The translations under genes and the position numbers were made by a program. Below the pieces are notes generated by a model. That model ran no database searches. It had not been told where the DNA came from and was given only the letters and a program-made list of their open reading frames with translations. Source: Nitrospiraceae bacterium (GTDB lineage Bacteria; Nitrospirota; Thermodesulfovibrionia; UBA6902). Taken from it: a stretch of 33,925 nucleotides of DNA. The number at the start of each line of letters is the position of its first letter. Position 1 is the stretch's first letter. Of this stretch, positions 17,109 to 24,107 are shown one piece after another. The DNA is taken from positions 1-33,925 of the forward strand of contig QZKO01000046.1 in the NCBI GenBank assembly GCA_003599505.1. The letters run 5' to 3'.

Positions 17109-17140
17109 CGAACTTTCACGCTTACGAACTTTCGCGCTTT
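17109..17140 (+). repeat. 16-bp tandem repeat at the 3' end of the DUF4143 ATPase gene
   Basis: Units CGAACTTTCACGCTTA (17109-17124) and CGAACTTTCGCGCTTT (17125-17140) differ at two positions; a more degenerate relative lies at 17090-17108. The TAA stop and the last five or six residues of the convergent ATPase gene lie inside these units. Confidence 0.8.
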
Positions 17141-18291
17141 GCGGACAGTTTCCTCCATGGAAGTATTTTTATTTTCCCTTTGACCATCTCTTGTTCTCCA
17201 CCGTAAACAAGCAAGGCCGGGAGATCACTTTTGCCCGATAATTCGCTCCACTTCTCTAAATTAGCCAGAAATTCCGGTACAAATGTTTGCCCGGATTTGA
17301 TCTCAACAGGTTTCAGCAGGTCGCCATCTTCCAGCACAAGGTCGATCTCCAACCCCTTGCTGTCTCGCCAGAAATACAGATTCGGCTGCATACCCTGATT
17401 GAGATGGGCCTTGAGGAACTCCGTTATTATAAGCGTCTCGAACAGCGCCCCTCGCTGGGCATGAAAGGAAAGCTGTTCGGGGTCCCTGATCCCCAGCAGC
17501 CACGCTGCAAAACCTGTATCGCAGAAATACAGCTTCGGCGTTTTAACAAGGCGCTTGTTGAAGTTGCGGTAATGGGGCTTCAGCAGAAACACAATATAAC
17601 TCGCCTCCAGCACCGATATCCAGGAGGACGCCGTATTATGGGTGATTCCACAGTCCGTAGCCAAAGAGGATAGGTTGAGCAATTGACCGGTACGGGCCGC
17701 GCACATCTTTACAAAACGCTGAAAAACCGAAAGGTCCTTCACATTGATAAGCTGTCTTAAATCCCTTTCGATATAGGTCGCCATATAGCCGGCAAACCAG
17801 TCGGCCGGTAAGAGGTCCCTGTCGTAAAGCGGCGGGTACTGCCCGCAAAAGAGAAGGTCGGAAAGATTATCGCAAAGCCGCTTTGCCGTCTTAAGCTCGC
17901 TCATTGAAAACGGCAAAAGCTGCACCAGTCCCACCCTGCCTGCAAGGGACTGGCTTATGCCGGACAAAAGGCCGAACTGCTGCGAGCCTGTAAGCACAAA
18001 CTTGCCGGGCAGCATGTCCTTATCGACAATGGTCTGGAGATAAGAGAACAGTTTTGGGGCGCGCTGCGCTTCATCCAGAACAACTCCGTCTGGAAATCTC
18101 GACAGCAGTCCCCGGGGGTCATCTTCTGCCAGCATTCGCATGTCGGGGTCTTCAAGCGACAGGTAGGGTTTTTGAGGGAATACTGCTTTGGCGAGAGTTG
18201 TTTTGCCGGATTGCCTTGGCCCGGTTATGGCCAAAATCGGGAACCCGCGCGCAAGACGCTTGAGAGTCCGGCCTGAATCCCGCTCGATCAT
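17122..18291 (-). CDS. AAA-family ATPase with DUF4143 domain
   Basis: A 389-residue accessory ATPase of the AAA_14/DUF4143 class. The Walker A motif GPRQSGKT is at residues 24-31 and the Walker B VVLDEAQ ends with D73-E74. The DUF4143 C-terminal half has the usual sequence of a winged-helix-like segment (LSSLATDCGITHNTASSWISVLE), KLYFCDTGFAAWLLG, and a nuclease-like tail (LYFWRDSKGLEIDLVLEDGDLLKPVEIKSG) with a restriction-fold E-x-D...E-x-K pattern. The molecular role of this widespread family is unknown; copies are patchily distributed and often horizontally transferred. The gene is monocistronic, opposite to its neighbours, with its own promoter and a repeat-derived C-terminus (AKRESS). Confidence 0.92.
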   Translation of the reverse strand: MIERDSGRTLKRLARGFPILAITGPRQSGKTTLAKAVFPQKPYLSLEDPDMRMLAEDDPRGLLSRFPDGVVLDEAQRAPKLFSYLQTIVDKDMLPGKFVLTGSQQFGLLSGISQSLAGRVGLVQLLPFSMSELKTAKRLCDNLSDLLFCGQYPPLYDRDLLPADWFAGYMATYIERDLRQLINVKDLSVFQRFVKMCAARTGQLLNLSSLATDCGITHNTASSWISVLEASYIVFLLKPHYRNFNKRLVKTPKLYFCDTGFAAWLLGIRDPEQLSFHAQRGALFETLIITEFLKAHLNQGMQPNLYFWRDSKGLEIDLVLEDGDLLKPVEIKSGQTFVPEFLANLEKWSELSGKSDLPALLVYGGEQEMVKGKIKILPWRKLSAKRESS

Positions 18292-18566: not shown

Positions 18567-18602
18567 AAAAGTCCGCTTGATTCCCCCTTAGAGGTGATTT
18601 GG

Positions 18603-19067
18603 ATGATAGAGAGAGAGAGCCAAAGAATTCTTGATAAATATTATCGGGAAAAGGGCAGTGTCATATCCATACTCCAGGATGTTCAGGAGGCCTTCGGATA
18701 CATCCCTGAGGACGCGGTATTCTGGTTTTCAGGGAAACTGAATATCCCCGCAAGCAACTTTTTCGGAGTCGCGACTTTTTATGCCCAGTTTTATTTAAAA
18801 CCGCGCGGGAAGAACATCATCACCGCGTGCTGCGGGACCGCCTGTCATGTCAAGGGCGCGGAGCCGATGATAAACAGGATACGGGCCGACCTTGCCGTTG
18901 CCGAAGGCGAAGACACGACCTACGACGGACAGTTCACAATCGAGAAGATCGCCTGCGTAGGCGCCTGCAGTATCGCTCCGGTATTAATAATAAACAAGAA
19001 GGTCCACGGCAACATGTCTCCGGACAAGGCCTCGAAGACCCTGAAGGAATTTGAGAAAAGCAAATAA
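18603..19067 (+). CDS. NuoE-like [2Fe-2S] subunit of NAD-linked formate dehydrogenase
   Basis: A 154-residue thioredoxin-fold ferredoxin subunit similar to NuoE, HydC and HndA. The helical N-terminus (SVISILQDVQEAFGYIPEDAV) leads to FFGVATFYAQFYL, then the cluster ligands C76 and C81 (CCGTACHVKGA) and C118 and C122 (CVGACSIAPV). It would work with the NuoF-like protein encoded next, linking formate oxidation to NAD(P)H. GAGGTGA at 18591-18597 sits 5 bases before ATG 18603, so I prefer this start to the GTG at 18594, which lies inside the Shine-Dalgarno. First gene of a four-gene operon ending with the catalytic selenoprotein. Confidence 0.9.
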   Translation: MIERESQRILDKYYREKGSVISILQDVQEAFGYIPEDAVFWFSGKLNIPASNFFGVATFYAQFYLKPRGKNIITACCGTACHVKGAEPMINRIRADLAVAEGEDTTYDGQFTIEKIACVGACSIAPVLIINKKVHGNMSPDKASKTLKEFEKSK

Positions 19068-19078
19068 CGTTACCGACA

Positions 19079-20914
19079 ATGACTGAAAAGAAGAAGACCG
19101 TAAACAAGAAGGCCCAACCAAAGGCCAAAAGCAAACCAAAGTCAAGGATACCGAAAGACCTGACCATACGGGTGTGCGTCGGCACCGGCGGACTTGCCGC
19201 GGGCAGCAAAGAAGTCATCGAGGCGTTTTACGCTGAGCTGGAAATCCATGGTTTGCCTCCGTGTGTTGAGAAAAAATGCGTCAACAAGACCGGCTGTCGC
19301 GGCTTTTGCGCAAAAGACGTGCTTGTGGATGTAATCATTGACGGCGAGCTTTCGACCTACCAGTTTATAAAGCCGGAAATGGTCAACCGTATTGTAAATG
19401 AGCATATTATCGGCGGCAACCCTGTCACGGAATGGCTGGTCGGCCCTGATTATCATGTTTTCCACGACAAACAGACGAAGATACTTCTGAAACAGTGCGG
19501 ACAAATTGATCCTGAGGATATCGAGGCATATCTCGGCATCGGCGGGTATAAAGGGGCCGGAAAAGCGCTTTCAGTAACGCCTTTTGAGGTAATTGAAGAG
19601 GTAAAGGCCTCGGGCCTTCGCGGAAGGGGCGGGGCCGGGTTTCTCACAGGGCTGAAATGGGAGCTCTGCAGCATGGCAAAAGGGACGCCGAAATATATCA
19701 TCTGCAACGCGGACGAAGGCGACCCCGGAGCGTTCATGGACCGGTCTGTCATTGAAGGCAATCCCCACTCCGTGCTCGAAGGCATGATTGTCGGAGGTTA
19801 CGCGATCGGGTCAAGTTACGGATATGTCTACATCCGGGCGGAATATCCGCTTGCCATTGAACGCCTGGAGACGGCCATCAGACAGGCAAAGGAAAAAGGG
19901 TTTCTGGGAAAAAATATTTTCAACAGCGGATTTGACTTCGATATAAAAATCAAACAGGGAGCTGGCGCCTTCATCTGCGGTGAAGAGACCGCGCTCATTG
20001 CTTCCATAGAAGGAAAACGCGGGATGCCCCGTTCCAAACCGCCGTTCCCGGTCAACAAAGGCCTATGGGGCAAACCCACTGTAATAAATAATGTCGAGAC
20101 GCTTTCAAACCTCCCGTCAATTATTACAAACGGCGCCAAATGGTACTCATCGATCGGTACCGAGAAGAGCAAAGGGACCAAGGTCTTTGCGCTTACCGGG
20201 AAAATCAAGAATACCGGCCTCATTGAAGTGCCGATGGGCATTTCGGTGAAAGAGATTATCTATGACATCGGCGGAGGCATGGAGAGGAACCGTCAGTTCA
20301 AGGCTGTTCAGACAGGCGGGCCTTCAGGGGGCTGCATCCCTGCTTCGCACATCGACATGCCGGTGGATTATGAATCACTGATCGGTATCGGCTCCATGAT
20401 GGGTTCAGGCGGCATGGTCGTCATGGACGACGCCACCTGTATGGTCGATATGTCAAAATTCTTTCTGTCGTTTACCCAGCACGAATCCTGCGGCAAGTGC
20501 GTCCCCTGCAGGATCGGGACCAAGAGGATGCTTGAGATACTGACCAGGATAACCGAAGGCAAAGGCAAAGAAGGCGACATAGAGCTTCTCCTTGAGCTTG
20601 GTACCGACATTAAATTGTCTTCATTATGCGGTCTCGGACAGTCCGCGCCGAACCCTGTCCTCTCGACCATAAGGTTTTTCAGGAATGAATATGAGGCGCA
20701 CATAAATGACGGCATATGCCCGGCCCATGTATGCAAGGCCCTGCGCCAGTATGTCGTAAACGCGGAGGTCTGCAAGATGTGCGGCAAGTGCTTCAGGGTA
20801 TGCCCTTCAGGCGCGATTACATGGGAGCCGAAGAAGAAGGCGGCAATAAGTAAATCAAAATGCGTAAAATGCGGCGCATGCTTTGAGGCATGCCCGTTTA
20901 ATTCAATCATGTAA
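19079..20914 (+). CDS. NuoF-like NAD(P)-, FMN- and Fe-S-binding subunit of formate dehydrogenase
   Basis: A 611-residue fusion typical of HydB/HndC and soluble FDH beta subunits. After a lysine-rich start comes an N-terminal thioredoxin-like domain (about 28-115), then the NuoF core with GLRGRGGAGF (179-188), NADEGDPGAFMDR and GAGAFICGEETALIASIEG. N3-type cluster ligands are C471, C474, C477 and C517. Two C-terminal ferredoxin motifs follow (C565-568-571-575 and C595-598-601-605). The N-terminal domain has C33, C62, C67, C73 and C77; where many relatives show a C-x4-C pair, only C33 is kept (VCVGTGGLAAGS), so its [2Fe-2S] site may differ. It would exchange electrons between FdhA and NAD(P)+. 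Subunits of this architecture also occur in electron-bifurcating enzymes, but bifurcation is not shown here. Confidence 0.9.
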   Translation: MTEKKKTVNKKAQPKAKSKPKSRIPKDLTIRVCVGTGGLAAGSKEVIEAFYAELEIHGLPPCVEKKCVNKTGCRGFCAKDVLVDVIIDGELSTYQFIKPEMVNRIVNEHIIGGNPVTEWLVGPDYHVFHDKQTKILLKQCGQIDPEDIEAYLGIGGYKGAGKALSVTPFEVIEEVKASGLRGRGGAGFLTGLKWELCSMAKGTPKYIICNADEGDPGAFMDRSVIEGNPHSVLEGMIVGGYAIGSSYGYVYIRAEYPLAIERLETAIRQAKEKGFLGKNIFNSGFDFDIKIKQGAGAFICGEETALIASIEGKRGMPRSKPPFPVNKGLWGKPTVINNVETLSNLPSIITNGAKWYSSIGTEKSKGTKVFALTGKIKNTGLIEVPMGISVKEIIYDIGGGMERNRQFKAVQTGGPSGGCIPASHIDMPVDYESLIGIGSMMGSGGMVVMDDATCMVDMSKFFLSFTQHESCGKCVPCRIGTKRMLEILTRITEGKGKEGDIELLLELGTDIKLSSLCGLGQSAPNPVLSTIRFFRNEYEAHINDGICPAHVCKALRQYVVNAEVCKMCGKCFRVCPSGAITWEPKKKAAISKSKCVKCGACFEACPFNSIM

Positions 20915-20934: not shown

Positions 20935-21396
20935 ATGGTCAGCACAAGGCGTTTAAAGGAAATTATATTATTCAAAGATTTTACGCAGGAAGAGCTTGAA
21001 AAGATTTCAAACATTCTGAAGGAATCCTTCTACCCGAAAGGTACTGTAATCTGGGAAGAAGACAGCCCTGAACAGGGACTGCAGATTATTGATTACGGCA
21101 GGGTAAGGGTGTCGAGAAGGACCAAGGAAGGGAACAGGCAGATACTTGCCGTTCTGAAGGCCAATAATTTTTTCGGGGAGCTTTCGATTCTCGACGGCCG
21201 CGCCCATTCCGCATCAGTGGAGTCCCTGGAGGACACGAAGGTGTTCATCCTATCGAAAGCCGACATGGACAAGCTCCTCGCGGAAACACCCCAGACCGCG
21301 TATAAGATTGTAAGTGAAATGACTATCGCAATCGTGGAAATACTGCGTGAAATGAACGACAAGTTCATGAAGCTGGTTGATTATGTGTGGGAGTGA
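20935..21396 (+). CDS. Stand-alone cyclic-nucleotide-binding-like domain protein
   Basis: A 153-residue protein with one cNMP-binding beta-roll of the CRP/FNR type and a C-terminal helix, but no helix-turn-helix. FTQEELEKISNILKE, FYPKGTVIWEEDSPEQGLQII and FFGELSILDGRAHSASVES define the fold. In the phosphate-binding cassette G81-E82 are kept, but the arginine normally before Ser-Ala is H91 (HSA instead of RSA), so cAMP or cGMP binding is doubtful. The C-terminal helix (IAIVEILREMNDKFMKLVDYV) looks like the dimerisation helix of CRP. It lies between the NuoF-like and catalytic FDH genes with short spacing, so it may be a regulatory or assembly partner of the enzyme. That role is an inference. 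Confidence 0.85.
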   Translation: MVSTRRLKEIILFKDFTQEELEKISNILKESFYPKGTVIWEEDSPEQGLQIIDYGRVRVSRRTKEGNRQILAVLKANNFFGELSILDGRAHSASVESLEDTKVFILSKADMDKLLAETPQTAYKIVSEMTIAIVEILREMNDKFMKLVDYVWE

Positions 21397-21397
21397 C

Positions 21398-21404
21398 AGG
21401 AGGT
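21398..21404 (+). promoter_or_regulatory. Shine-Dalgarno deciding the fdhA TTG start
   Basis: A perfect AGGAGGT lies 6 bases before TTG 21411. It favours this start over GTG 21387, which lies within the preceding gene and upstream of the ribosome site. Confidence 0.8.
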
Positions 21405-21410
21405 ACGGAG

Positions 21411-24107
21411 TTGACCGACAAACAACTTAAAATAACTATAAACGGCAGGGAAGTCGTCTGCGGGAAGGAAGATACGATCCTTCAGGCCGCGCAAAAAGCG
21501 GGGGTCCGGATTCCTACACTCTGCAATGACAACCGTCTTGAGCCATACGGCGGATGCCGGTTATGTATAGTCGAGGTAAAAGGCGTAAACAGGCCTCTTC
21601 CGGCCTGCACCACCCCTGTTACGCAGAACATGGAAGTCCGCACGGATAACGATACCATCACGAGGGTCCGGAAGACCCTCATTTCCCTGCTGCTCTCAAA
21701 CCATCCGAATGACTGCATGAGATGCGAGAAGACCGGCGACTGCGGCCTTCAGGACCTTTCATACGAGTACGGTGTGGACGGCAAGAGGTTTGAGGGGGAG
21801 ATGTGGGACCTGCCTATTCGTGAAGATAACCCGTTTATCACCTATGAGCCCAACAAATGCATATTGTGCGGGAGATGCGTGAGGATATGCAATGAAATCG
21901 TTATGGCAGGCACCATTGACCTTGTCGGGAGAGGCTTTAATTCAATGCCTGACACCGCCTTCAGAAAACCCCGCTCTCTGGACAATTGTGAGTTCTGCGG
22001 GCAGTGCGTATCCACCTGTCCGACCGGAGCGCTGACCGACAGGAAAGGCAGGGGCAAGGGGCGTTCATATGAGATGAAGAAAGTGAAGACCACCTGCTCG
22101 TACTGCGGCACAGGTTGCAACTTCTATTTAAATGTGAGGAACAATAAAGTCATAAAAGTGACTTCTGCCTATGACGCGCCTGTCAATCAGGGGAACCTCT
22201 GCATAAAAGGGCGCTACGGTTATGATTTTATCCACAGCCCTGAAAGGATAAAAACACCTCTTATAAAAAAGGGCGGGAGCTTCCATGAGGCCGGTTGGGA
22301 TGAGGCGCTTGACCTCATAGCGAATAAATTCAAGGAACTGGTTGATAAGCACGGACCGGAAAAGGTCGGCGGCTTTTCATCATCAAGATGCACTAACGAG
22401 GAAAACTACCTGCTTTCAAAGTGGGTCAGATGCGCGATCGGCTCGAACAACGTAGACAATTGCGCGCGTGTCTGACACGCTCCGACTGTGGCCGGTCTGG
22501 CCACCAGCCTGGGAGCGGGAGCTGCCACGAATTCATTATCACAGATGCCGGACATTGACACGCTCTTTCTGTTCGGCTCCAACCCTACGGAGGCGCATCC
22601 CATAGTTTCTTTCTGGCTGAAAGCGGCCTTGCGCAACGGCGCTAAGCTTATCGTAGGCGATCCCCGTAAGACCTGGATGGCAAGACGCGCGGACGTCTGG
22701 CTTAACCTCAAGCCCGGCAGCAACATTGCCATGATGAACGGCCTTGTGAATGTGATACTTCAGAACGGCTGGGAAAATAAAGAATTCATAGCAAAAAGGA
22801 CAGAGGGATTTGAAGAGTTAAAGGCAAAAGTTCAGGAATATGACCTGGAGCGTGTCGAGAAGCTTACAGGGGTTTCAAGAGATAATATAATCGAAGCGGC
22901 CCGCTTGTTTTCACACGCCGACAAGGCGATGATCGTCTACGGCCTTGGAGTTACAGAGCACCAGACCGGCACGGAAAACGCGATGGCGATTGCGAACCTC
23001 GCCCTTGTCTGCGGGCATCTCGGAAGGCCTTCAACCGGCATTATGGCGCTCAGGGGGCAGAACAATGTTCAGGGCGCTTCGGACCTCGGCCCGTTACCGG
23101 CGACCCTTCCGGGTTATCAGCCTGTCTCGGACGCGAAGTCGCGCGAAAAGTTTGAAAAGGCCTGGGGCGTAAAGATAAGTCCCAAACCGGGACTGAAATC
23201 CGTTGAGATGCTTGATGAATGCCGGAGGGGGAATTTCAAGGGACTGTTCATACTTGGAGAAGACCCTGCCCAGACAGACCCGGACCTCCACCATGTTTGG
23301 AAGGCGCTTGAGTCCGTGGAATTCCTTGTGGTGCAGGATATCTTCCATACAGAGACCACGCGTTTTGCCCACGTGATACTTCCCGGCGCAAGCTTTGCAG
23401 AAAAAGACGGCACGTTCACGAACGGCGAGCGCCGGGTCCAGCGCGTAAGAAAGGCGATAGAGCCTCTTTCTGGTATGGCGGAATGGCAGGTCATCAGCAG
23501 GCTGTCGACCCTCATGGGTTATCCCATGAATTATACTCACCCGGCTGAGATCATGGATGAGATCGCGGGTCTCGTGCCGATTTACGGAGGGATAAGTTAC
23601 GGGCGTCTTAATAACGGGGGAATACAGTGGCCCTGCCCGACTAAAGACCATCCCGGGACCACAACATTATACACTGATTTATTCTCAAGACCCGGGGGGT
23701 TGGCGAAATTCATGGCCCTGGACCATAAAGGCTCCGCCGAAGTCCCGGACAAAACCTATCCGTATGTGCTGATTACAGGAAGGATACGAGAACACTACAA
23801 CAACGGCTCCATGACAGGAAGGGTGCCCGGGATTATGGAGCTTGTCCCTGAGGAACTGCTGGAAATGAGTCCGGAAGATGCAAAGGCGCTGAACATTAAA
23901 AACGGCGACCGCGTAAAAGTGGCATCGAAGAGAGGCGAGATAAAGGTAAAAGTGAAAGTGACGGACCGTTCGCAGCCGGGCAACGTGTTCCTCACGTTCC
24001 ATCACAGGAACGCCCTTTCAAACCTGCTGACCTCTGAATTCAGAGACCCGATTACCGGCACGCCGGAATACAAATCGTGCGCTGTAACGATAGAGAAGCA
24101 GGGTTAA
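21411..24107 (+). CDS. fdhA: Selenocysteine-containing formate dehydrogenase catalytic subunit
   Basis: An 898-residue Mo/W-bisMGD enzyme that oxidises formate to CO2 (or runs in reverse). It reads through an in-frame UGA at 22473-22475 as Sec355 in CARV-U-HAPTVAG, the standard FDH active-site context, with a SECIS hairpin directly after it. The N-terminus has NuoG-like domains: [2Fe-2S] C38, C49, C52, C66; His-Cys3 H98, C102, C105, C111; ferredoxin motifs C150-153-156-160 and C193-196-199-203. The FDH [4Fe-4S] site starts at C229 (CSYCGTGC). The molybdopterin core and a C-terminal dinucleotide-binding domain (near YVLITGRIREHYNNGSMTGR) complete it. The start is TTG 21411, set by AGGAGGT. The host must have selA-D functions and fdhD-type maturation elsewhere; none are in this window. 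Confidence 0.95.
22473..22516 (+). promoter_or_regulatory. Bacterial SECIS element for Sec355 of FdhA
   Basis: The UGA at 22473 is followed by a hairpin at the spacing found in E. coli fdhF. The upper stem GTGGCC (22488-22493) pairs with GGCCAC (22499-22504) around the loop GGTCT (22494-22498), which is the SelB-recognised GGUCU. A lower stem GCTCC (22479-22483) pairs with GGAGC (22512-22516). All of it lies in coding sequence. Confidence 0.93.

Follow-up and report, generated by a model that had tools for sequence, protein, structure and literature searches.

We report that the fdhA gene of an uncultured Nitrospirota bacterium contains an in-frame UGA codon which very probably (about 0.95 by our estimate) is decoded as selenocysteine 355 (Sec355) by means of a downstream hairpin, in what is predicted to be an NAD-linked formate dehydrogenase. 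The gene lies in a window of 33,925 nucleotides, the complete contig 31 of a draft genome (2.64 Mb, 87 contigs) rated 95.1% complete. Direct observation covers the features of the sequence, how they are conserved and covary, the homology of the enzyme, and the presence of selB and selD in the genome. An initial annotation of the window had proposed a UGA decoded as Sec together with an intact SECIS hairpin; conservation of the TGA, the loop codons, covariation of the stem, and the finding of selB together with a Sec-type selD all uphold that proposal, and Sec decoding is thereby supported as well as sequence alone permits.

The fdhA gene and the hairpin downstream of its UGA codon

The start of fdhA was set at a TTG codon picked from an AGGAGG motif (21398-21403) 7 nt upstream, and with this start the residue number 355 first assigned to Sec is correct. 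When the TGA is read through, a single open frame results, while the ORF list gives a 362-residue piece ending at the TGA and a 539-residue piece after it, so that gene calling does split the enzyme, as had been pointed out. The read-through protein consists of a NuoG-like Fe-S N-terminus followed by a molybdopterin catalytic part with complete molybdopterin domains (Pfam Fer2_4, NADH-G_4Fe-4S_3, Molybdop_Fe4S4, Molybdopterin and Molydop_binding), and it scores 882.1 bits against the TIGR01591 Fdh-alpha model, above the curated cut-off of 666.25. Its closest solved structure is a formate dehydrogenase alpha subunit (6tg9_A; 754 bits), which we take to be FdsA of the Rhodobacter capsulatus FdsABG complex. 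Formate oxidation or CO2 reduction is the predicted function, and FdhA would be expected to be an active enzyme carrying molybdenum or tungsten.

Table 1. Positions in the window of the formate dehydrogenase genes and of the elements associated with the UGA codon
Feature	Position	Strand	Basis or remark
fdhC, NuoE-like thioredoxin-fold [2Fe-2S] gamma subunit	18594..19067	+	PF01257, 145 bits; synteny in relatives
fdhB, NuoF/HydB-type diaphorase beta subunit, two C-terminal 4Fe-4S motifs	19079..20914	+	Pfam and PDB matches
Stand-alone cyclic-nucleotide-binding-domain protein in the operon	20935..21396	+	PF00027, 74 bits
fdhA, formate dehydrogenase alpha subunit	21411..24107	+	898 residues in the read-through frame, Sec355; TIGR01591, Pfam and PDB matches
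In-frame UGA, putative Sec codon, CARV-U-HAP context	22473..22475	+	Orthologous sites keep the TGA
SECIS upper hairpin, stem GTGGCC/GGCCAC	22488..22504	+	Pairing and covariation in homologues
Lower stem, GCTCC (22479-22483) / GGAGC (22512-22516)	22479..22516	+	Forms here; structure not conserved

All the sequence letters named in the initial annotation are present where it had placed them. The hairpin is made up of GTGGCC (22488-22493), the loop GGTCT (22494-22498) and GGCCAC (22499-22504). As had also been claimed, its distance from the UGA matches that of the hairpin in E. coli fdhF. With its 5-nt GGUCU loop, 6-bp stem and distance of 18 nt between the UGA and the loop, it falls within the published bSECIS limits (PMC13188914). 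The segment 22473-22516 folds at -20.1 kcal/mol; a shuffle test of the folding energy gave a weak and unimpressive z of about -1.4, and with longer flanks the minimum-energy fold is a different structure. Folding energy by itself was judged too weak as SECIS evidence, and conservation was used in its place. As a chance model, the downstream peptide was back-translated with the codon usage of the window; 0.8% of the draws gave the GGTCT loop under an upper stem of Watson-Crick pairs throughout, and 0.24% gave the five lower pairs in addition to these. No SECIS match was returned by an Rfam scan at the gathering threshold; SECIS_3 (RF01989) aligned end to end over 22470-22528, beginning 3 nt before the UGA, with 25.7 bits (E 6.5e-4) against a gathering score of 63. 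The single-sequence case for a SECIS is good, not final, and the deciding evidence is the conservation and covariation in relatives.

Conservation and covariation among homologues

Homologues close to the window's fdhA occur in all family genomes (37/37), and of the matches that exceed 69% identity and cover the site, nearly all contain one internal TGA there, the exceptions being two Cys-type paralogues. Conservation of the read-through protein extends to either side of this codon. The site was extracted from the family matches and from named genome records, covering Nitrospirota, Desulfobulbaceae and more distant bacteria, and in this collection TGA (65 distinct sites) and the Cys codons TGY (25 sites) align at one place; the Cys set stands at 25 rows after L138, where the pattern had matched spuriously and out of frame, was dropped from 26. 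The loop and stem columns compared are synonymous codon positions. Sites keeping the TGA have the GGTCT loop in 63 of 65 cases, and their upper stem shows all six pairs in 60 and five of the six in the other 5. Pair 18-30 joins the third positions of a Val and an Ala codon, both of them free to vary; here the 65 sites have G-C (n = 48), U-A (n = 10), A-U (n = 5) or G-U (n = 2), and none has a mismatch. GGT accounts for only 104 of the 911 Gly codons in the window, and in the Cys homologues the loop Gly is GGT in only 5 of 25; the four sequences that have Cys and share the V-A-G-L-A peptide read GGTCT, GGGCT, GGCCT and GGCCT. Across 48 distinct homologues, 98.3% of the cells of the upper helix are paired and pair 18-30 covaries, the paired percentage and the covariation score of these 48 rows being higher than in any of the 500 shuffles or in any slid control. 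The alignments indicate that the upper-hairpin structure is kept by selection, and that the Cys homologues lose this constraint. One Cys-type (TGT) fdhA, from Nitrospirae nDJH15bin8 (L128), still has the six-pair upper stem, with the loop GGCCT, a pattern as expected soon after a Sec-to-Cys change.

The lower GCTCC/GGAGC stem of the initial annotation is likewise present where it had been placed, but it is not conserved where codons vary freely. Of the 48 homologues, 27 lack pairing at 9-42 and 30 at 6-45, and the SECIS is therefore taken to be the upper hairpin; the other lower-stem pairs are mostly codon positions fixed by the protein. With its free pairs not maintained, the lower stem was ruled out as a conserved SECIS part, and in the window it is incidental or accessory, in keeping with the minimal SECIS of E. 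coli, an upper hairpin.

Two genomes of the window's genus, G008 (L073:1547-5296) and G005 (L074:603-3444), carry a selC*-type gene for a tRNA-Cys that has the anticodon GCA and a body resembling tRNA-Sec (53 and 49 bits against RF01852, respectively), upstream of a Cys-type fdhA by about 1 kb in L073 and about 30-55 nt in L074. In these fdhA paralogues, which are 70% identical to the window's FdhA, Cys TGT replaces the UGA, and the codons of the lost SECIS loop have started to drift. Both loci continue with a second selD that has an in-frame TGA of its own, and L073 also has a YedF-like ORF, identified by eye. In G022 (L076:3617-6152), a selC*-like tRNA-Cys adjoins a short fdhA fragment near a selD with an in-frame TGA, which points to selC* and FdhA moving together. 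The selC* tRNA-Cys is already known, Nitrospirae included (PMC7609411); its occurrence beside Cys-type fdhA in two congeners is a more unusual lead than the Sec fdhA itself.

Selenium pathway genes and competing readings

The signature of Sec decoding is selB plus selC, with selA and selD (PMC1273633). In the draft, selB was found on contig C18 (32084-33943; 365 bits, cut-off 242) and selD on contig C11 (321 bits, cut-off 125), the latter having itself an in-frame TGA at the known Sec site (GG-U-AAK). Neither selA (searched for by HMM and with a congener's SelA protein as query) nor tRNA-Sec (selC; searched for by covariance model and by BLAST with a congener's tRNA) was found in the draft, and no tRNA-Sec-like gene of this genome reached the Rfam threshold. 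The full selenium pathway that the initial annotation had expected elsewhere in the genome, with a search for its four genes as the check, was thus recovered as regards selB and selD and not as regards selA and selC; since the draft is incomplete, it is not the complete genome without them by which the proposal would have been refuted, and the pathway is not seen in full either. A selC nested in or overlapping selB has been reported for some Nitrospirae (PMC13188914), and none was seen around selB here. The gene flanking selC in two congeners, searched for in the draft to locate the gap, had no match, an uninformative result.

The congeners carry selA, selB and tRNA-Sec without exception (9/9). 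All three sel genes of G003 fit into about 12 kb, those of the others are scattered, and the selA and selC loci shift position from one congener to another. In G002, G010 and G013, no more than about 1 kb separates selB from a contig end, the G002 contig being 6.3 kb long. With selB near contig ends and the sel loci mobile, the sel genes are prone to assembly gaps, and because all nine congeners carry both selA and selC, their absence from the draft is more likely an assembly loss; gaps in assembly or binning are the most economical reading, and we infer that both genes exist in the organism. In G002 (L180:4208-5163), there is an overlap between tRNA-Sec and the end of an ORF that by eye resembles an integrase, which fits selC being an integration site and mobility of the sel loci in the genus. 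A second Sec fdhA, truncated by the contig start, was observed on contig 49 of the window's own draft genome (G000; L019:3-1685), with a TGA and its own SECIS of the same type, and with NuoE- and NuoF-like genes downstream.

The points against Sec decoding are the lack of selA and tRNA-Sec in a 95%-complete draft, the SECIS_3 score below threshold, the weak fold z-score and the other fold preferred with longer flanks. The first of these could mean that Sec decoding was recently lost, selA and selC being truly absent, the UGA terminating translation, and fdhA persisting as a relic beside intact selB and selD, and the HMM, the covariance model, the tRNA BLAST and the SelA query did all fail in this bin. 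Against such a loss, fdhA with its SECIS, the second Sec fdhA, selB and selD are open but for their Sec codons, selA and selC are kept in all nine congeners, and mobile selA and selC loci, with selB near contig ends in three congeners, make sel genes easily lost in assembly; we regard it as very unlikely. A lineage truly without selA and selC, be it one with an unrecognised tRNA and Sec-synthesis route or one that has just lost decoding with its selenoprotein genes intact, is improbable to the same degree.

A cysteine reading of the UGA by an opal-reading, tRNA-Sec-like tRNA-Cys (selC*) would have a precedent, as Nitrospirae have selC* tRNA-Cys genes, some of them with UCA anticodons (PMC7609411), and two congeners have the selC*-like genes described above. 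These, however, have GCA anticodons and read Cys codons, adjoin a Cys-type fdhA, and stand in genomes that keep a normal tRNA-Sec, whereas the window's genome holds selB and selD and has no tRNA-Sec-like gene reaching the Rfam threshold; this reading is more improbable still. Least credible of all is a chance hairpin after a TGA that either ends translation in the ordinary way, or is a sequencing error, or comes from a Cys codon mutated in a pseudogene. Standard gene calling breaks the gene there, 13 of the window's 28 genes end in TGA, more than in any other stop, and single-sequence folding is unremarkable, but the same codon is TGA in 65 distinct sites, the loop codons are conserved, the stem changes are compensatory, and with the protein conserved on either side of the TGA, conservation already refutes this reading. 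Decoding of the UGA as Sec remains the preferred explanation, by which the catalytic residue of FdhA would be the UGA-encoded selenocysteine 355; SelB would bind the hairpin just 3' of the UGA (GGUCU loop, 18 nt from the codon) and deliver Sec-tRNA-Sec to the ribosome, where Sec would be inserted at the UGA without termination.

The operon and its relation to known systems

By its gene content, the region reads as an NAD-linked formate dehydrogenase, FdhCB-(cNMP protein)-FdhA, of a Thermodesulfovibrionia-type Nitrospirota bacterium, and the order fdhC-fdhB-cNMP-fdhA is kept in most relatives. The cyclic-nucleotide-binding protein (153 residues), in which Pfam found no DNA-binding domain, lies between fdhB and fdhA, and it occurs at this junction in most family members (54-93% identity) and is absent in some. 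FdhB (611 aa) has its best PDB matches among HydB-like chains (9bov_B, 771 bits; 8oh5_B, 757 bits; 7q4v_B, 756 bits), with only 396 bits for 6tg9_B, and aligns to the HydB-type chains over residues 29-610, with a C-terminal 2x[4Fe-4S] region. These matches place the beta subunit in the HydB (electron-bifurcating) class, not with FdsB, and suggest as plausible a coupling to NAD and ferredoxin together. An AAA_14/DUF4143 ATPase gene is situated on the minus strand (17122-18291) between a nuo operon and the formate dehydrogenase genes.

The annotation is corrected in that one full-length selenoprotein formate dehydrogenase takes the place of two ORFs. NAD-linked Sec formate dehydrogenase with the same SECIS is general in this Nitrospirota family, whose genomes often hold two or more copies. 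The gene is of a well-known kind, its SECIS hairpin is canonical for bacteria and the mechanism is a textbook one; only the location is new.

As in the decoding of E. coli FdhF, FdnG and FdoG, the UGA stands in a CARV-U-H context in a genome with selB and selD, and the GGUCU apical loop begins 18 nt after it, as in fdhF. Unlike in the E. coli type, the upper stem can form six pairs, U17 pairing with A31 and not bulged, selA and selC are not in this draft assembly, and a NuoG-like fusion with diaphorase subunits takes the place of the formate-hydrogenlyase or membrane form. Rfam SECIS_3 resembles the element from end to end, with a score under the gathering threshold. The likeness to HydABC-type bifurcating complexes (7q4v, 8a6t, 9bov, 8oh5) is confined to the beta subunit; the catalytic partner in the putative bifurcating complex here is a formate dehydrogenase. 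With the FdsABG type (6tg9), the alpha subunit is colinear over residues 14-902 and NuoE- and NuoF-like partners are held in common, but FdsA-type homologues have Cys where this FdhA would have Sec, and the beta subunit here scores far higher with HydB-type chains (756-771 bits) than with the FdsB-type chain (396 bits).
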